A stretch of DNA of 23,073 bases from a virus: positions 1 to 23,073 of the IMG/VR virus record IMGVR_UViG_3300049812_000032; one strand, 5' to 3'. The notes under the pieces were generated by a model, which saw nothing but the letters and a program-made list of their open reading frames with translations, searched no databases and was not told where the DNA came from. The position numbers and the translations under genes are program-made. Numbering within the stretch: the stretch's first letter is position 1; each line of letters opens with the position of its first letter. Positions 5,235 to 22,663 of this stretch are shown in pieces.

Positions 5235-6879
5235 CGGCAACCTCATGCACTTCAGGTGCTGCACCCGCCACCATACGTCCTGTGTCCATCTCATAGTACA
5301 GCCAGCCAGCATGTCCTGTCCGTCCTGTGCGGCGGCACTTCACAAGCTGCACCTTGGTACAGTTACGAGTGTAGTCATCGTCGGATAGCTTGTCGCGGCT
5401 GAGTAGCAGCGTGTTGAATGCTATCTGATTGATGGACCCAGACCCTTTCATGTCGTACTCGTTGACATCGTGAGGGTCTTTGACACTAGGCTTACGCAGA
5501 TGGGACACGATGATGATAGCCGCGTTGGTTTCCTTGGCAATCTTCAGGCACCTGTCCATGAAGTCATCGATCAACCCGTTCTCGTTGGACTGCACCGCAG
5601 CCTGTAGAGGATCAAGGATAATCACTTCGCAGTCTAGTCCCTTGATGAGGTAGCGCATACGAGAGAACAGGTCGTCAATGTCAGATGATCCCATGTGGTC
5701 ATCGATATGAATCCTGTCGCTCTCCTTCACCTCTTCGTAGAACTTACGGTAACCACTGTAGTCCCGCTCCTCCTCCGGTATCTGCTTGATGTTCACACCA
5801 CCCACGACACTGACCACGTTCTCCGTAGTCTCACCGATGGATGACTCAAGGAACACCGCACCGATCCTTCGGTTCGTCTCCTTGTACATACCGTACAACA
5901 GGTTAGTAACGAAAGTGGTCTTACCTACAGATGTTAAGGCACCGATCACGGTCACCTCCCCTGCCCCCATGCCACCGTTCATCATCTTGTTGAGCGTACC
6001 AAACGAGGAAGGGAAGGGGATAATCTCCGCCTTGCCACGGTTGACGAACGCATCCCAGCAAGTCTCGTCAGACAGTGAGATGACACCGGCAGGTTTATAC
6101 TCCTCCGCTCCCCACCATGACTTCACGAACTGCTGCACCTTACCACGCTGTAGCATCTCTCCTGCATCCTTGAGCGGGAGGGACACCACCTTGGCCTTGC
6201 CCGGTGAGAAGATAGACATCACTTCCTGAGATGCTTTCTTTCCAGCCGCATCATTATCAAAGCAGATGACTACCTTCTCGAACGTCTCCAGCCACTCCAG
6301 ACTTTCCTTGATGTCCTTCGATGCTGCCGCTGCACCACGCTTCAGACTGACGACGGGATACTTCCCATCGAACATCTCAGCCACAGCCATAGCATCTATC
6401 TCACCCTCGGTAACAGTCACGAACTTACCGCCCTTGCTCCAGACATTCTGTCCGAACAGACCAGTGCCTTCCAATGTGCCCGTGGTATAGAACTCCTTGC
6501 TTGGGCAGTTGCGTACTTTGGTTCCGACTACATCACCACCCTGTTCGTGGTAGGGGTAGTGGTGCTTGAGTGTCTGACCAGTTTCTCTGTCATGCTCCAG
6601 CGTCACGCCGTACTTCTCAACGATCCGCTGGGATATCTTCCTGTCACTAATTGGTCCTGATACACCAACCATCTCTAGTCCTCTCGTTTTATGGGATGAT
6701 CCCAGATTTTCTGTGGGTAGTGTGGAGGGATCGATTGATCCCCCCGACACCACATGACCACACTTGAAGCAGTACCCATGCCCATCATCGTAGACTGCGA
6801 GGTTGTCACCTGACTTGTCCTCGCCACTCTCCCTGCATGATGGACACGGAGCCTTGCCAATGAAGGTGGACTCCCCCAT
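5221..6879 (-). CDS. Primase-helicase (T7 gp4-like)
   Basis: 552 residues (T7 gp4 is 566). An N-terminal zinc-binding domain carries CPSC (Cys12, Cys15) and CFKC (Cys37, Cys40). The TOPRIM primase has VTEGEIDAMAVAE (Glu158, Glu160, Asp162) and CFDNDAAGKKA (Asp208, Asp210). The RecA-type ring helicase has GALTSVGKT (313-321, Walker A, Lys320), VIILDPL (Walker B, Asp423), IIIVSHLRKP (His460) and LVKCRRTGRTG near 512-522. The acidic tail ends DEEF, like T7 gp4, where the tail contacts polymerase. It unwinds DNA and makes primers at the fork. The start overlaps the SSB stop as TGATG. A 13-bp variant of the phage palindrome lies inside it at 6692-6704. Confidence 0.97.
   Translation of the reverse strand: MGESTFIGKAPCPSCRESGEDKSGDNLAVYDDGHGYCFKCGHVVSGGSIDPSTLPTENLGSSHKTRGLEMVGVSGPISDRKISQRIVEKYGVTLEHDRETGQTLKHHYPYHEQGGDVVGTKVRNCPSKEFYTTGTLEGTGLFGQNVWSKGGKFVTVTEGEIDAMAVAEMFDGKYPVVSLKRGAAAASKDIKESLEWLETFEKVVICFDNDAAGKKASQEVMSIFSPGKAKVVSLPLKDAGEMLQRGKVQQFVKSWWGAEEYKPAGVISLSDETCWDAFVNRGKAEIIPFPSSFGTLNKMMNGGMGAGEVTVIGALTSVGKTTFVTNLLYGMYKETNRRIGAVFLESSIGETTENVVSVVGGVNIKQIPEEERDYSGYRKFYEEVKESDRIHIDDHMGSSDIDDLFSRMRYLIKGLDCEVIILDPLQAAVQSNENGLIDDFMDRCLKIAKETNAAIIIVSHLRKPSVKDPHDVNEYDMKGSGSINQIAFNTLLLSRDKLSDDDYTRNCTKVQLVKCRRTGRTGHAGWLYYEMDTGRMVAGAAPEVHEVADEEF
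6692..6704. promoter_or_regulatory. 13-bp variant of the palindrome (copy 2), inside primase-helicase
   Basis: TGGGATGATCCCA with the same AGATTTT and TTTTA flanks as other copies, but within codons 59-63 of primase-helicase (Leu-Gly-Ser-Ser-His), in the linker after the zinc domain. The centre has one extra base. Confidence 0.55.
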
Positions 6880-7945: not shown

Positions 7946-8158
7946 TTACTTGTCCTTTTCTTTAGCATTTACTTGGTCTTTGTAGTTCCTTAGACGTGCC
8001 GCTGCATCGCATAGCACGGCGTAGTCAGACATAAACATATCCCCATCACACTCCCATAGTGTCTGAACGGGACCGTTTACCATAGGCACAAGTCGCAATA
8101 GAAACTCCTCGGCGGTGATCTTTTCTTCGTAGCTCCAGTTGTATTTCTTAGGCATCAT
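7946..8158 (-). CDS. Hypothetical protein (70 residues)
   Basis: MMPKKYNWSYEEKITAEEFL, then LVPMVNGPVQTLWECDGD and DYAVLCDAAARLRNYK. A mixed alpha/beta small protein; family not recognised. The ATG at 8158 overlaps the previous stop as ATGA; an in-frame ATG at 8155 is equally possible (TGATG), and AAGGAG lies 5 or 8 bases upstream respectively. It is followed directly by the zinc-ribbon-like gene. No cysteine or membrane pattern that would give a function. Confidence 0.8.
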   Translation of the reverse strand: MMPKKYNWSYEEKITAEEFLLRLVPMVNGPVQTLWECDGDMFMSDYAVLCDAAARLRNYKDQVNAKEKDK

Positions 8159-8667
8159 GCAATCTCCTTCATTTGTGCGGCCATGCCGATGGTATACCAG
8201 ATTGGTTCTGATGTAAACTGCCACCGGGCCATGTAAGATTTCTCGTTGATGTAGTAGTTACGGTACGCCATGATGGTATTCTCAGGCACCTTGCAGTAGT
8301 CGTGCATACACTGGGGTGGCTCAGTGAAGGGACCGTTGCGTAATTCATATGGACAGTTGCCCAAGTCCCTCACCATACCGATCCTCTCGGTCTTGTGAAC
8401 CTTTCCGTATCTCTTCGTGTACTCCTTGCACAAACTATTAAGAAGGTTCCACAACCATATGTAATTGCTACGGTTTTCCCTAGCCCACACTGCGCTGGGG
8501 TGGTTCTTGTGCGTTGCTTTGTAGCACTCAACACTAGGCTCCCCGTCGATCTCATGGTGCGCTGTGCTGAGTAGCTGGGCAGTCTCCAGTATCATCTTGA
8601 CCACGTGCTTGTCACAGTGCATCTCGGCGCAGCGTTCCGGGTTCTCGTGTAGGTAGAATATATTCAT
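8155..8667 (-). CDS. Conserved marine-phage protein (DKHVVKM family), function unestablished
   Basis: 170 residues. The N-terminal pattern MNIFYLHENPERCAE and HCDKHVVKMILETAQLLSTAH, then CYKATHKNHPSAVWARE, NYIWLWNLL, YGKVHKTE and AYRNYYI matches a family I know from many marine phages and cyanophages, usually annotated hypothetical or loosely as a DNA repair protein. Conserved His, Asp, Lys and Trp residues suggest an enzyme with a nucleic acid or nucleotide substrate, but this is inference. The ATG at 8667 overlaps the dCMP deaminase stop (ATGA), with GGAGG 10 bases upstream, so expression is coupled to a nucleotide enzyme. Confidence 0.88.
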   Translation of the reverse strand: MNIFYLHENPERCAEMHCDKHVVKMILETAQLLSTAHHEIDGEPSVECYKATHKNHPSAVWARENRSNYIWLWNLLNSLCKEYTKRYGKVHKTERIGMVRDLGNCPYELRNGPFTEPPQCMHDYCKVPENTIMAYRNYYINEKSYMARWQFTSEPIWYTIGMAAQMKEIA

Positions 8668-9119
8668 GCTTCTATAACCTCCATCTTAGCTTGTACAACA
8701 TTAACACCGCCCTGAGTCAGGAACTCCAGACCCTCCGTGCTTCTATAGTCTTCTGAGTATATAACACGGATGATCCCAGATTGCAAGATTAATTTGGCAC
8801 ACTCCATGCAGGGTGCATGAGTACACACTATCGTCGCGCCTTCTCCGCTCTCGGTACACCTAGCAAGCTTGGCTATCGCATTGGACTCCGCATGTAGAAC
8901 CTGAGGCTTCGTCACTAGTCTCGGATTATCGCCCACACTCGTGCTGTATATCTCAGATTCGCAATTGTTATCCCACCCTGAGGGTGTACCATTGTATCCG
9001 ATGGATATAATCCTTTCGTCCTTCACAATGATACACCCCACCTTCAACCTCCGTGCCGTGCTACACTCAGCGAATGCGTAGGCAGTTTCCATGTATGCAA
9101 CTAAATGTTTCTCTTTCAT
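8664..9119 (-). CDS. dCMP deaminase (deoxycytidylate deaminase)
   Basis: 151 residues from the ATG at 9119, with GGAGG 7 bases upstream. It converts dCMP to dUMP, the substrate of ThyX. The zinc site is visible: HAESNAIA (His76, Glu78) and PCMECAK (Cys104, Cys107). GYNGTPSGWDNNC (residues 41-53) is also characteristic of dCMP deaminases. The enzyme is cytoplasmic and is commonly allosterically controlled by dCTP/dTTP in this family. It is coupled on both sides (ATGA with the 35-residue membrane peptide upstream and with the DKHVVKM protein downstream). An in-frame start at 9188 is rejected for lack of a good ribosome binding site. Confidence 0.95.
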   Translation of the reverse strand: MKEKHLVAYMETAYAFAECSTARRLKVGCIIVKDERIISIGYNGTPSGWDNNCESEIYSTSVGDNPRLVTKPQVLHAESNAIAKLARCTESGEGATIVCTHAPCMECAKLILQSGIIRVIYSEDYRSTEGLEFLTQGGVNVVQAKMEVIEA

Positions 9120-9223
9120 AAGAACACCTCCACATAAGCAAGTAAAACTATAATCCAACAGAAGAATATACGCTCCTCTACTTTCCAATGCTTACATATC
9201 TTCTTCCACATTATTCCTAACAT
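9116..9223 (-). CDS. Membrane mini-protein (35 residues)
   Basis: MLGIMWKKICKHWKVEERIF followed by FCWIIVLLAYVEVFL. A basic N-terminal half and one hydrophobic stretch (about residues 19-35) suggest a single membrane anchor. The start overlaps the stop of the preceding gene (TAATG) and the stop overlaps the start of dCMP deaminase (ATGA), exactly the coupling seen for established genes here, which is the main support for it being real. AAAGGA is about 11 bases upstream. Function unknown; inner-membrane targeting is inference. Confidence 0.6.
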   Translation of the reverse strand: MLGIMWKKICKHWKVEERIFFCWIIVLLAYVEVFL

Positions 9224-12884: not shown

Positions 12885-13256
12885 ATGTCAGACGATACAC
12901 CAGTAAAGAAGAAACGAGGTAATCCAAACTTCTACAAAGGTATGAAGGCCCTCAATCCCGAAGGAAGACCCAAAGGTTCCCTAAACAAATATACAAAGCT
13001 CTCAAGAGAACTTATGTCCACCAAAGGACCGGAGATTGTAAACAAGGTAATTGAGATGGCATTGGAAGGCGACAGGCATTGTCTGAAGATGTGTATGGAC
13101 AGAATTATCCCTACCTCAAAAGCAGTAGAGATTACACACGAACATCAGGACTTAGGTGTTAATATTATAATCGAAGGTGTAAAAGCTGTAGAAGCAAAGG
13201 AAGCAAAAGAGCAGGAAGTATTTGAAGCAGAGTTTGAAGAAATAAAAGATGCCTGA
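12885..13256 (+). CDS. Putative small terminase subunit (DUF5681-like N-terminus)
   Basis: 123 residues. The N-terminus KKRGNPNFYKGMKALNPEGR and PKGSLNKYTKLSRELM matches the DUF5681 pattern (NP.GRPKGS.NK) found in small terminases and packaging proteins. A helical domain (EIVNKVIEMALEGDRHCLKM) and an acidic tail follow. Its position directly before the large terminase, with an 8-base overlap, supports a DNA-recognition role in packaging; inference from context plus motif. The ATG at 12885 has AGGAG upstream. Confidence 0.8.
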   Translation: MSDDTPVKKKRGNPNFYKGMKALNPEGRPKGSLNKYTKLSRELMSTKGPEIVNKVIEMALEGDRHCLKMCMDRIIPTSKAVEITHEHQDLGVNIIIEGVKAVEAKEAKEQEVFEAEFEEIKDA

Positions 13257-14529
13257 TCTAAAGGTTACTCTTCACGATGCTCAAATGCAAATCTTCAAGT
13301 CTGACAAACGATTTAAAGTAGCAAGTTGTGGCAGGAGATTTGGTAAAAGTTATTTAGCTGCATGGGTGCTGATTATTAAAGCACTCCAAAGTGAGGACAA
13401 GGATGTCTTCTATGTAGCCCCCACATTTCAACAAGCTAAAGATATTCTCTGGTCAATCCTCAAGGACGTAGGCCAGAATGTAATCAAAAGCACACACGAA
13501 AACACTGCTACAATTACACTGGTCAATGACCGTAAGATTTATCTAAAGGGATCAGACAGACCAGATACACTACGAGGCGTAGGTCTAGCATATGTCGTAA
13601 TGGACGAATATGCCTCAATGAAACCAGAAGTGTGGGAAATGATCCTTAGGCCCACACTGGCAGACGTTAAGGGTGGTGCATTGTTTATAGGTACACCCGC
13701 AGGTAAGAACCATTTTCACAAGCTGTGGCTAGAAGCACAACTACCAGAAAACGAAAAAGATTGGGAGTCCTATCAATTTGTTTCAACAGATAATCCTTTT
13801 TTGGACCCCGATGAAATCGAAGCCGCCAAGAAATCAATGTCTACTCAGGCATTTCGTCAGGAATTTGAAGCTACCTTTGAAAGTTTTTCAGGTGGTGTAT
13901 TTAAGGAAGAATGGATTAAATATGAAGATGATGAAGAGTTTGATGAAGATACGGCCTCTAAAACGGGTTCGTATGTGGTTTCAGTCGATCCGGCAGGCTT
14001 TGAAAAAAGCGATAAGTCCAGAGGACTAAAGTCTTCTAAACTAGACGAAACTGCTATATCAGTAGTTAAAGTAGTTGGTGATGAGTGGTTAGTTAAAGAC
14101 ATACACCACGGTCGTTGGAACATCAAAGAGACAGCAGAAAAGATTATTACGATAGCTGAAGATGTAAATGCAACGACAGTAGGAATTGAAGCAGGTGCGC
14201 TTAAGAATGCCATCATGCCCTACATCGAAGATGAAATGAGAACAAGAGGTTCTTGGATTAATCTTACAGATGTTACTCATGGCGGCAAAAGAAAGCAAGA
14301 CAGAATAGTTTGGTCTTTGCAGGGCAGGTTTGAACACGGCAAGATCAAGTTTAGAAAAGCAGAGTGGAACCACCACTTTATAAGTCAGATGCTAGACTTT
14401 CCAAGTCCACTTTCTCACGATGACTTGTTAGACTCTTTGGCATACATAGACCAAGTTTCGGTAGCAGACTTTGCACAACAGATAGAACTAGACGAGTGGG
14501 AACCTTTGGATACTGTATCAGGATATTAA
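13249..14529 (+). CDS. terL: Terminase large subunit (packaging ATPase and nuclease)
   Basis: 426 residues, a usual terL length. ATPase: SCGRRFGKSYLAA (Walker A, Lys33), VVMDEYA (Walker B, Asp119, Glu120), GTPAG coupling motif (148-152). Nuclease: VVSVDPAG (Asp247), GIEAGAL (Glu314) and SHDDLLDSLAY (Asp391, Asp392, Asp395), giving the RNase H-like acidic triad. It drives DNA into the prohead at the portal and cuts the concatemer. The start overlaps the small terminase by 8 bases; the portal gene follows 3 bases after the stop. Confidence 0.97.
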   Translation: MPDLKVTLHDAQMQIFKSDKRFKVASCGRRFGKSYLAAWVLIIKALQSEDKDVFYVAPTFQQAKDILWSILKDVGQNVIKSTHENTATITLVNDRKIYLKGSDRPDTLRGVGLAYVVMDEYASMKPEVWEMILRPTLADVKGGALFIGTPAGKNHFHKLWLEAQLPENEKDWESYQFVSTDNPFLDPDEIEAAKKSMSTQAFRQEFEATFESFSGGVFKEEWIKYEDDEEFDEDTASKTGSYVVSVDPAGFEKSDKSRGLKSSKLDETAISVVKVVGDEWLVKDIHHGRWNIKETAEKIITIAEDVNATTVGIEAGALKNAIMPYIEDEMRTRGSWINLTDVTHGGKRKQDRIVWSLQGRFEHGKIKFRKAEWNHHFISQMLDFPSPLSHDDLLDSLAYIDQVSVADFAQQIELDEWEPLDTVSGY

Positions 14530-19459: not shown

Positions 19460-19987
19460 ATGAGCGATTATACAATTCAAGTTAGCTGGTCTGGCAAAGA
19501 TGCTCTAGCCGATTCTGACTCTAATAAAATTATTTCTGGTGCAGATTTTAACACTGAGTTTAGTGCTGTTCAAACTGCGGTAAACACTAAGTATGACTCT
19601 GCTGACCTTGGTGTAACTCTTCAACAGTTTGATGCTGACACGTTAAAAGCTGACACTACTGATGAACTTACCGTTGGATATACTTCTGCAAACAGCGATG
19701 CAGGAACCAAAAGCAGTGGTACTTTTACTCCAGACCCACGCACGTCTAATTTTCAACACGCAGTTAACGGCGGAGCGCATACTCTTGCCCCTCCTGCTTA
19801 CAACTCTACAATGGTAATTTTGTACAAAAACAATGCTTCAGCCGGAACTATAACTACAAGCGGATTTACCAAGGTTGATGGAGACGACCTTACGACTACA
19901 GACGGCCATGAATTTTTCATGTACATCACAAGGTATAACGACGGATCAACCACGTTTTCCGCATTGACTGTTAAGGCTCTTCAGTAA
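19460..19987 (+). CDS. Probable virion fibre/tail-associated protein (175 residues)
   Basis: MSDYTIQVSWSGKDALADSD, then NKIISGADFNTEFSAVQTAV (residues about 22-41), followed by a Ser/Thr/Gly beta-rich domain (HTLAPPAYNSTMVILYKNNA, GTITTSGFTKVDGDDL). The start resembles the N-terminal anchor of short fibre or decoration proteins in marine phages; the rest has a beta-sandwich look. It is followed by the glycine-rich adhesin-like gene with a TAATG overlap, suggesting they act together, for example as fibre shaft and tip. Ribosome binding site AGAGG upstream. Confidence 0.75.
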   Translation: MSDYTIQVSWSGKDALADSDSNKIISGADFNTEFSAVQTAVNTKYDSADLGVTLQQFDADTLKADTTDELTVGYTSANSDAGTKSSGTFTPDPRTSNFQHAVNGGAHTLAPPAYNSTMVILYKNNASAGTITTSGFTKVDGDDLTTTDGHEFFMYITRYNDGSTTFSALTVKALQ

Positions 19988-20742
19988 TGTTTATGCCTGC
20001 GGTACAAGGCGGTCACTCTGTTAGTGGTGGAATTACGCTTGACATTACATCAAACACGTCAGATGTAAATATTCTTACATTGGCAACCGCTGCGGGATAC
20101 AATGCAGGAAGTGATACAACAGCTATTACTGTAAACATAGCTAGTGGCGTTGCTATTACTGCGACGAGTGGTAACCCAGCAATTCGAACTGGTGCGCTAA
20201 ATGCAGCGTCAAACCTAACCATTAATCTTGCATCAAGTGCTACTGTCTGTGGATTTGACGGGGCGCAAGGGTCCAACGGCGGGACAAACTCAGCGGGAAG
20301 CGCAGGTGGCAATGGCACCGACGCTATTAAATTTGAAATAACGTCCGGCAGTGGCACCTATGCAGTAGTTAATAATGGCACCCATGTGGGCGGAGGCTCA
20401 GGGGGAGGCGGTGGTGCTGGCGGAGGCGGATCGGCAGGCTGTCGGGCAACTCAGGTAAGTGACGGAAAGGGCGGTTATAGTTGTGGACCGGGAAACACAT
20501 GCGGGTCTACAGGATCAGCAGGATCAGCCGGATCAAGCGGCGCATCTTGCCGCGCTCAGGACGGAACTGCTGGAACTGCGGGTAGCAGCGGAAGTACCCC
20601 CAGCAACGGCTGTCATGTTACGGTAAGTGCCGGATCGGGTGGCGCAGGGGGCGCTGGAGGAACGGCAGGTAAAGCTGTAAATAAAGGCGGTTTAACTGTT
20701 ACGACTAGCGGATCAGGTACATATTATGGAGCAACAAGTTAA
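19987..20742 (+). CDS. Glycine-rich adhesin-like protein (fibre tip candidate)
   Basis: 251 residues. The N-terminal about 110 residues are Thr/Ala/Ile-rich beta-type (ITLDITSNTSDVNILTLATA). From about 110 the protein is extremely Gly/Ser/Ala-rich (GGGSGGGGGAGGGGSAG; GGAGGAGGTAG) with cysteines interspersed (GYSCGPGNTCG, GASCRAQDG, SNGCHV). Runs of GG spaced for packed polyglycine-II helices recall the gp38 adhesin of T-even phages and other phage tip proteins; this is analogy, not proven homology. It is likely exposed on the virion and involved in host binding. TAATG overlaps on both sides. Confidence 0.75.
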   Translation: MFMPAVQGGHSVSGGITLDITSNTSDVNILTLATAAGYNAGSDTTAITVNIASGVAITATSGNPAIRTGALNAASNLTINLASSATVCGFDGAQGSNGGTNSAGSAGGNGTDAIKFEITSGSGTYAVVNNGTHVGGGSGGGGGAGGGGSAGCRATQVSDGKGGYSCGPGNTCGSTGSAGSAGSSGASCRAQDGTAGTAGSSGSTPSNGCHVTVSAGSGGAGGAGGTAGKAVNKGGLTVTTSGSGTYYGATS

Positions 20743-21563
20743 TGGCTAAAGTTCTTATACCTTTTTCTGGAGGAGTAAATTCTACTTATGTACTTCACCG
20801 TTGGCTTACTGAAACGGATCATGAAATTATTGCGTCCTATTCCGAAGAGGAGTGGCTTGATAATGTAACGGATGATCCGTGGCGAGGGTCACGAGAAAAA
20901 AATGCAGCGCAAAACATGGTTAATTGGCTTAAGTCAAATGTTCGAGATTTTACGTTTGAAATTGTTCAGTGGCCTAACAGCTACGTTGAAAATCAAGTTC
21001 CAATCCGCGAGGGTTTTACTGAAACCGTAAACCTCGGAATTCTTGAACCTCGCTATTCTGGTTATAAATCTTTGATCGACAGGCATTTGCCAGATGGAAT
21101 TGTAATTGGCATATCTTTAGAAAACACCGCAACAGATAGTTATGAAAGGTTGCGCGATGTTTTTGAAACGGACGGTGTTGATGTTTACTTTGCAGGTTCT
21201 CGTACCTTAGACCCTATTGCAAAAGGCGAAGCGTTTAATCACGACGCTATTGCTGCAACATTGTCTGGTAGATTTGAGCAACTAGAGTCGATTCCTACTG
21301 ACTTACAGGCGTTAATGGCAGTTGGATGTGACTGTGATCGGCCTGAAGATCAAAAGTTTCTTTGCCTTCCTTGCGGTTATGAAAAAACCCGTGAAGTTTT
21401 ATCTGATATGACCGGCAAAGAGTTTGATGAAATGTTTGCTGAATATGGTTCCTACGGGTCATGGCGTAGTGAAGCTGATCCTGCAACCTATAAATATAGG
21501 GGGTTTCCTTATCGCAAATTTGCTGAAATTATCGGCAAACCTGACAATGTAGGATTTGACTAA
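20742..21563 (+). CDS. PP-loop ATPase, QueC-like
   Basis: 273 residues. MAKVLIPFSGGVNSTYVLHR holds the PP-loop SGGVNS (residues 9-14), as in adenylating ATP pyrophosphatases (QueC, TilS, GMP synthase), with Asn13 in place of the usual Asp. GDP/GIxxE-like segments follow (VIGISLENTATDSYERL, 121-137). A four-cysteine site lies near the end: CDC (196, 198) and CLPC (208-211), comparable in position to the zinc site of QueC, which makes the 7-deazaguanine precursor preQ0. No other queuosine/preQ0 or DNA-modification gene is visible, so the substrate is open. TAATG-coupled to both neighbours. Confidence 0.82.
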   Translation: MAKVLIPFSGGVNSTYVLHRWLTETDHEIIASYSEEEWLDNVTDDPWRGSREKNAAQNMVNWLKSNVRDFTFEIVQWPNSYVENQVPIREGFTETVNLGILEPRYSGYKSLIDRHLPDGIVIGISLENTATDSYERLRDVFETDGVDVYFAGSRTLDPIAKGEAFNHDAIAATLSGRFEQLESIPTDLQALMAVGCDCDRPEDQKFLCLPCGYEKTREVLSDMTGKEFDEMFAEYGSYGSWRSEADPATYKYRGFPYRKFAEIIGKPDNVGFD

Positions 21564-21883
21564 TGATAAGAAGATCTTTCTTTCTTTGGGTTTTTGTTTT
21601 AATAACTCTAGCGGTTTACTCTACCACAGCTAAAGCAAATGAAATACCTTGTATAGGAAAAGAAGAAAGTCAGATATTTGAACCTTCTGAACTGGTTCGT
21701 GGTTACGGAATTAGAGAAGGAGCTTTGATTAAACTGTCTGTTACTTCTGAAGGACACTGGATTCTTACACTATCTCCTCCTGAACTAAATGGAGCAGTTT
21801 GTCTAGTTTTTATGGGAACAGACTGGAAGTTTGTAACTTCTAAAGCTACTAAAGAAGAGGTTAAGTATGGAAGGAGCGATTGA
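21563..21883 (+). CDS. Secreted protein at the start of the lysis block
   Basis: 106 residues with a clear signal peptide: basic MIRR, hydrophobic FFLWVFVLITLAVYS, and an AKA-NE cleavage site at about residue 25. The mature part has two cysteines (Cys30 and one in GAVCLVF), perhaps a periplasmic disulfide. There is no lipobox, so it is not a classical outer-membrane spanin lipoprotein. Position before spanin, holin and lysozyme genes suggests a role in lysis or envelope modification (inference). TAATG overlap with the PP-loop gene. Confidence 0.78.
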   Translation: MIRRSFFLWVFVLITLAVYSTTAKANEIPCIGKEESQIFEPSELVRGYGIREGALIKLSVTSEGHWILTLSPPELNGAVCLVFMGTDWKFVTSKATKEEVKYGRSD

Positions 21884-22229
21884 TTTAAGAACTGTATTAA
21901 CCTTAGGAGGTGTCTTGTTTAGTGTAGCTGGAGCCAGTGCTGTAGCTAAAATGCAAATAAAACAACTATCAGAAGCTTTAGAAGACGTAGAACAACGTCT
22001 AAGAAAAATGGATAGCAGGTGTGACAAACTTAATACCTCTACAGAAACTCAGGAGCAACGCATAAATATTCTTGCTAAGATGGCTTCTCCAGAAAACCTT
22101 AGACGAGATCACATGCAACTAGCAGAAATGCTAACTAATGTTAAACAGCTTGAAAAAAGTTATGACCGGCTATATGCCATGCACAACGGCAAACATCCGC
22201 CAGTAGCCAACGAAAGGAAAGCAGAATAA
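21867..22229 (+). CDS. Membrane-anchored coiled-coil protein, inner-spanin-like
   Basis: 120 residues. One membrane segment near the N-terminus (TLGGVLFSVAGASAVA, about 10-26) is followed by a long coiled coil (QIKQLSEALEDVEQRLRKMD and ILAKMASPENLRRDHMQLAE) and a basic end. This N-in/C-out anchor plus periplasmic coiled coil is the layout of Rz-type inner spanins, which disrupt the outer membrane at lysis. No matching outer spanin is seen. The ATG at 21867 has GAGG upstream and overlaps the previous gene by 17 bases. A DUF2730-type protein is the alternative. Confidence 0.72.
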   Translation: MEGAIDLRTVLTLGGVLFSVAGASAVAKMQIKQLSEALEDVEQRLRKMDSRCDKLNTSTETQEQRINILAKMASPENLRRDHMQLAEMLTNVKQLEKSYDRLYAMHNGKHPPVANERKAE

Positions 22230-22663
22230 TGTTAAGCTTAGTAGGATCACTTCTTGGATTTGCTACCTCAACTGGCCCCGGTCTTTTCAAGATGTACATG
22301 GAAGGCAAGCAGGATGTCAGGGACAAAGAGCATGAACTTAAGATTATGGCTCAACAGTCTCAAGATCGTAGAGATGAAGCTGTAATTACCAGTGTAGGTG
22401 AAACTAACATAGCGGTACATAAGAATGCCGATGAACACGCTAAACGTGCTAGCCAGTGGGTAGTCAACCTGTCTGCTACGGTACGTCCTTTGATTACCTA
22501 CTTTTTCTTTCTTGAGTTTGTCCTTCTGACTTTCCTGTCAGCTTTTGGTCTTATTAGCGCAGAGTTGTTTGACAAGCTGTGGTCAGATGAAATCATAGGT
22601 ATCTTTAGTGTCATTATCAGCTTTTGGTTTGGTCAACGTTTGGTTAGCAAGTGGTCTAAATGA
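22229..22663 (+). CDS. Holin, GTA_holin_3TM-like
   Basis: 144 residues. An N-terminal amphipathic/hydrophobic segment (SLVGSLLGFATSTGPGLF), a long charged helix (about 25-75), then RASQWVVNLSATVRPLITYF leading to two membrane helices (about 87-109 and 122-136). The WVVN..ATVRP motif before the membrane pair matches the three-TM holin family also found in gene transfer agents. It forms holes in the inner membrane, releasing the lysozyme encoded next. TAATG start with AAGGAA upstream; its stop overlaps the lysozyme start (ATGA). Confidence 0.85.
   Translation: MLSLVGSLLGFATSTGPGLFKMYMEGKQDVRDKEHELKIMAQQSQDRRDEAVITSVGETNIAVHKNADEHAKRASQWVVNLSATVRPLITYFFFLEFVLLTFLSAFGLISAELFDKLWSDEIIGIFSVIISFWFGQRLVSKWSK

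Follow-up and report, generated by a model that had tools for sequence, protein, structure and literature searches.

The PP-loop ATPases form a superfamily in which an SGGxD[S/T]-type loop lies on β1-α1 of a five-stranded Rossmann (HUP) core, and the Asp of SGGxDS is the usual Mg-coordinating residue. These enzymes adenylate an oxygen, of a carboxylate or an amide, and an amine, ammonia or sulfur attacks. In the case of the tRNA(Ile)-lysidine synthase TilS, a lysine amine attacks the ATP-activated centre. Phage receptor-binding proteins are assumed to recognise their hosts via ordinary side chains, which are varied by mutation and recombination, and we know of no enzyme gene accompanying the gp38 adhesins of T2, S16 and PP01.

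At the tip of long tail fibres, the gp38 protein binds the receptor; it is built as a poly-glycine II sandwich whose distal loops make the contact with the receptor (PMC12892980, PMC6851490). In PP01 gp38, the putative receptor-recognition loop follows a long poly-Gly helix (PMC12892980). Among the PP-loop enzymes, Cap9 of type IV CBASS joins a carboxylate to the N-terminal amine of a protein, and QatC of qatABCD probably performs a similar reaction on its operon partner QatB; the target is the N-terminal Gly of the defence protein (PMC13279940). The signatures of QueC are SGGxDS, YxQxHxxE, VPxRN, YPDC and C(x)8CxxCxxC (PMC13329287).

The window, that is, the whole stretch analysed, is an entire IMG/VR record of 23,073 bases, linear and probably a fragment. 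It encodes a PP-loop protein placed between fibre and lysis genes, as the first-pass annotation had described, with a gp38-type adhesin on its 5′ side and Rz/holin-like ORFs on its 3′ side. The features of the region are the following:

19460-19987, + strand: fibre-segment ORF, overlapping the adhesin start; no family match
19987-20742, + strand: gp38-type poly-glycine II adhesin (Foldseek), 251 aa; proposed substrate of the enzyme
20467-20469, + strand: codon AAG of adhesin Lys161, in a predicted β-hairpin loop right after a long poly-Gly run
20482-20484, + strand: adhesin loop Cys166, conserved with or without the enzyme; internal control
20740-20744, + strand: TAATG, overlap of the adhesin stop and the enzyme start
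20742-21563, + strand: 273-aa PP-loop ATPase; founder of the viral family
20766-20783, + strand: PP-loop SGGVNS, residues 9-14; Asn13 invariant in the family
21006-21008, + strand: Arg89 of PIRxGF; invariant
21120-21122, + strand: Glu127 of the SLENT motif; invariant
21327-21374, + strand: Cys196-x-Cys198 ... Cys208-xx-Cys211; a putative site for a metal, not found in all tandem paralogues
21563-21883, + strand: next ORF, secreted-looking, overlapping the enzyme stop; conserved downstream neighbour in many relatives
21867-22229, + strand: coiled-coil/Rz-like, spanin-like ORF (phrog_739, E 0.0015)
22229-22663, + strand: phrog_6637/holin-like ORF

Elsewhere in the window, a pyrimidine-dimer-glycosylase-like ORF (8155-8667; PF03013, E 6e-7) overlaps a dCMP deaminase (8664-9188), and ThyX (896-1573) and endonuclease I (1757-2155) belong to the same early block. 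The terminase (13249-14529) is 49% identical in its first half (residues 6-218) to terminases of SSU5-like phage-plasmids. Only one record matches it over 80% of its length, which suggests a chimera.

The ORF at 20742-21563 is a genuine PP-loop gene, as had been proposed, with SGGVNS and the C196-x-C198-x9-C208-xx-C211 cluster in place. Its relatives, of 28-100% identity, are found in at least 94 IMG/VR loci and it is under purifying selection (dN/dS 0.055 versus the relative in L004), so it is not a chance ORF. The AlphaFold2 model, based on an alignment of 42 members, has a mean pLDDT of 94.2 and a pTM of 0.91. In agreement with the superfamily, SGGxNS lies between a predicted strand (3-7) and a predicted helix (12-24) in β-α-β order, with Asp changed to Asn. 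This substitution, already pointed out from the single sequence, is invariant (42/42 aligned members), and since Asn stands for the usual Mg-coordinating Asp, catalysis is not assured. Gly10-Gly11, Asn13-Ser14, Arg89 and Glu127 are likewise kept in 42/42. The position of Arg89 appears to match the adenine-binding Arg of QueC VPxRN and R233 of QatC, and Glu127 would line the pocket on its substrate side. The Cys cluster is widespread in the alignment without being universal. Some tandem paralogues of T4-like contigs (in L053, L065, L071 and L072) lack it and retain SGGxNS, Arg89 and Glu127, so the putative metal site seems dispensable in part of the family.

The first-pass annotation had suggested a QueC-like enzyme, which would make preQ0 or another 7-deazaguanine for phage DNA and possibly complete a host pathway. 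The PP-loop, the PxR motif and the C-terminal Cys cluster are indeed shared with QueC in the same order, and 20 of the 42 members weakly match PHROG phrog_1550 ‘QueC-like’ (best E 5e-4), a family whose PP-loop is at position 145, as in QatC. Unlike QueC, however, the enzyme has Asn for Asp in SGGxDS, lacks YxQxHxxE and YPDC, carries CxC-x9-CxxC instead of the zinc motif C(x)8CxxCxxC, and retains from VPxRN only PxR (PIRxGF). It matches no Pfam family; PF06508 (QueC) does not match it at E≤10 and matches 0/42 members at E≤1, and QueC chains are absent from its top 50 PDB fold matches. A check for partner genes had been advised, and neither QueD (PF01242) nor TGT/DpdA (PF01702) was found in the window or in nine related contigs, all of them fragments. 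A QueC role, which also leaves unexplained the adhesin linkage and covariation described below, is very improbable.

Searches of NCBIfam, PADLOC and PDB sequences with the enzyme gave nothing significant. The sole NCBIfam match was LarE (TIGR00268, E 0.062), and the TIGR03573 profile (WbuX/PseA N-acetyl sugar amidotransferase) did not match. Foldseek against the PDB returned partial PP-loop matches only (E 2e-4 to 6e-3), namely the sulfurtransferase 5ztb, the nitrile synthetase ArtA, the argininosuccinate synthase ArgG and LarE. The best matches among viral predicted structures comprise one marine-virus protein of uncharacterised function, two proteins without a name, a ‘Rossmann’ protein of Klebsiella phage Miami and several phage ‘7-cyano-7-deazaguanine synthases’. 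The Miami protein (CPT_Miami_102; L089 4001-4924) is a remote structural relative from a cultured jumbo phage and lies near a tail-fibre gene on the other strand. No relatives, or only matches at chance level, were found in 50,697 phage records, and none in the one GTDB genome scan.

Profile comparison by hhalign with QueC, TilS, WbuX and ArgG gave probabilities of 40-82% over the N-terminal ~105-125 residues only, figures to be read as a rough guide with a TilS set probably contaminated by neighbouring QueC genes; the family is therefore not decidable by hhalign. TilS, another PP-loop enzyme, reached 75% over about 107 residues. TilS acts on tRNA with free lysine, however, and the similarity is confined to the N-terminal half. 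WbuX/PseA (TIGR03573) gave the highest probability of those tried (82%) and has an SGGxDSxY-like loop, which in the enzyme reads SGGVNSTY; those proteins, in contrast, are sugar enzymes of about 340 aa, and the window enzyme is without an NCBIfam match. The enzyme represents a new family of PP-loop proteins, and its relation to every named family is remote.

The ORF preceding the enzyme is Gly-rich, and its only Pfam match is PF05268 (GP38), at 17.4 bits (below the curated cut-off of 25; E 0.0042), aligned over 25-216 of 218. Its AlphaFold2 model (pLDDT 94.2) adopts the predicted fold of a poly-glycine II sandwich adhesin, and the only significant Foldseek matches in the PDB are gp38 of PP01 (9v85, E 2e-5) and of S16 (6f45, E 8e-4). 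The protein thus resembles T2, S16 and PP01 gp38 in its predicted sandwich fold with distal loops. It differs from them in the distal loops, which in those proteins are reported to be hypervariable but which preserve one Lys here.

The enzyme had been called a lone gene with no visible partner. On the contrary, its start overlaps the stop codon of the adhesin (TAATG), and the adhesin is the partner, with a loop residue that covaries with the enzyme. Adhesin-centred scans of IMG/VR loci placed the enzyme directly 3′ of 176 out of 201 adhesin ORFs; of the remaining 25, 11 sit at the end of a contig and 14 duplicate the enzyme-less adhesins described below. In the enzyme-centred scan, the adhesin is directly 5′ in 43 of 78 loci. 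These linkage counts take in overlapping loci of the same contigs, whereas the covariation counts below use unique sequences. Most enzyme starts are within 4 bases of the adhesin stop. The non-adhesin loci are mostly T4-like contigs, in which enzyme genes in tandem are flanked by gp15-like and terminase genes. A search of 13 such contigs, which are fragmentary records, did not find the adhesin; it was run without a positive control.

This placement bears on two other explanations. The first is that the enzyme acts on another target, such as a glycan of the host surface, LPS or some metabolite, with the adhesin loop coevolving to bind the altered receptor or metabolite. PP-loop relatives include the N-acetyl sugar amidotransferases, with WbuX at the top of the hhalign comparison, and the tandem-copy T4-like contigs also hold asparagine-synthase-like and other modifying enzymes. 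Its position, however, is fixed to the adhesin, whose stop codon it overlaps, and a third partner would be needed in all lineages to tie the two together; we consider such a target rather unlikely. The second is that the protein only helps the adhesin to fold or assemble, as a dedicated chaperone comparable with T4 gp38 or other fibre chaperones, which would have an ATP-binding fold and modify nothing. Fibre chaperones are typically encoded right behind the gene for the fibre tip, and a PP-loop with Asn might bind but not catalyse. On the other hand, the strict conservation of Gly10-Gly11, Asn13-Ser14, Arg89 and Glu127 speaks against it, and with a chaperone one would not expect a switch of just one loop residue, and of no other conserved column, whenever the enzyme is lost or changes type. 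We hold this explanation to be unlikely, if a little less so than a host target.

Such a switch is found at the adhesin loop. Where the accompanying enzyme has SGGxNS or SSGxNS, the position equivalent to Lys161 is Lys in 69/69 unique adhesins. In adhesins with the enzymes of a variant clade, whose PP-loop SGLGTNS has one extra residue, the same site is Asp (9/9). The members first found (L022, L023, L024 and L238) form one clade in which the enzyme is present, Lys is absent and 4/4 have Asp. The loci L414, L415, L416, L417 and L420 were fetched afterwards as an out-of-sample test and showed Asp in 5/5 and Lys in none. The variant-clade enzyme (L414-L417, L420, L022-L024 and L238) may activate the Asp itself.

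Among the unique complete adhesins without the enzyme, the site is Glu or Asp in five: L111 (SSESGDTC), L174 and L176 (HDGEGIYSC), L135 (PSGEGGYSC) and L184 (YDADTQQC). The sixth, L173, is a distant adhesin in which the motif is missing. Lys counts come from row-by-row reading and alignment; L184 and L238 were aligned by eye at the site and are less certain than the others, although the lack of a loop Lys in either is certain. As the variant clade has the enzyme though Lys is absent, the sequences indicate that the rule is a match between enzyme type and residue and not a need of the enzyme for Lys. Downstream of the enzyme-less adhesin of L111, a small ORF (5758-6162) is 2OG-Fe(II) oxygenase-like.

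Shared ancestry was also considered, that is, that tip and enzyme travel as a recombination module without a functional link and the residue pattern follows descent. Phage fibre regions do recombine as modules, and independent events are few, about five, with the variant clade as a single one. In a tree of 79 adhesins built with the loop columns excluded, the enzyme-less rows are scattered (L174/L176/L135 in one clade, L111, L184 and the distant L173) and the enzyme losses are nested inside enzyme-bearing clades. Independent contrasts were concordant in four cases and discordant in none (sign test p = 0.125, the minimum reachable with four contrasts). The chance that three Lys losses all fall on enzyme-less branches is ~2e-4, assuming uniform losses along the tree and ignoring rate variation.

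The change is also specific to the site. Conservation in at least 85% of the Lys adhesins applies to 55 columns, and none of the others differs in every enzyme-less lineage; the two conserved adhesin Cys are retained there. In L135, a deletion scar is preserved: TAATG and codons for MKILIPFS, the first eight residues of the enzyme, are joined to the next gene. The enzyme was not found elsewhere in the enzyme-less contigs, which are fragments of 4-36 kb. Against shared ancestry alone, three separate enzyme-less lineages turned the same residue acidic with the rest of the adhesin unchanged, one of them carries the scar of the enzyme start, and the prediction held on new loci. We regard the absence of a functional link as improbable.

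It is probable, from the pairing and covariation of the two genes, that the ORF encodes an ATP-dependent phage enzyme dedicated to the upstream gp38-type adhesin, one residue of whose loop it would modify. The broader reading, which we favour by a narrower measure, is that of a self-contained adhesin-modification system in uncultured tailed phages, with a new PP-loop family whose variants are matched to Lys or Asp. Enzyme and adhesin would be co-translated from their overlapping reading frames, the enzyme would bind ATP in the SGGxNS loop, and a single residue of the receptor-side loop (Lys161 in the window) would be modified ahead of the tip's attachment to the virion. The earlier suggestion of a new modifying enzyme was thus the better half of that guess, with the phage’s own adhesin as the likely target.

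In the most likely chemistry, proposed by analogy with Cap9 and TilS, the enzyme would adenylate the carboxylate of a small molecule, which the side-chain amine of Lys161 would then attack to give an amide-linked group. In the variant clade, matched to Asp, the polarity could be reversed, with the Asp activated and joined to an amine. The acidic residue of enzyme-less adhesins might imitate a modified Lys that carries a negative charge; this is only a hint, because a single base change turns K into E and the events are few. Modification would presumably benefit receptor binding.

In the same way as Cap9 and probably QatC, a PP-loop Rossmann enzyme would be encoded beside the protein it acts on, here the adhesin. 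The adenine-binding Arg/aromatic region and the Cys cluster of Cap9 and QatC resemble PIRxGF and CxC..CxxC of the enzyme. Unlike in those systems, the N-termini of the adhesins are not conserved and covariation concerns a Lys or Asp of an internal loop; the sequence relation is only remote. Two other sites on the adhesin were considered and rejected. The N-termini vary (MFMP, MSFG, MALQ, MLLP), and the conserved C-terminal end, G[AST][TV][SAG], is kept by enzyme-less adhesins.

The enzyme is new within a known superfamily, and for the adhesin-enzyme system no counterpart was found in the part of the literature covered. If the proposed modification is true, an enzyme acting on the tip loop adds a new layer to host recognition and the host-binding tip gains chemistry beyond the 20 amino acids. 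It would further account for possible failures of some environmental tip proteins expressed without a partner, and the enzyme would be a new protein-modifying member of the PP-loop superfamily.

The family is also present in another genomic setting. In the T4-like contigs L041 (7187-8807), L043 (3266-4865), L053 and L067, one to three copies lie between gp15-like and terminase genes. Their neighbours include an apparent 2OG-oxygenase, a glycosyltransferase-like ORF and asparagine-synthase-like proteins (in L043 with a PF00733 match, E 5e-12), and in L067 three sulfotransferase-like ORFs are located beside the copies. This setting is perhaps a larger modification island in a hyperplastic region of the cyanophage type.
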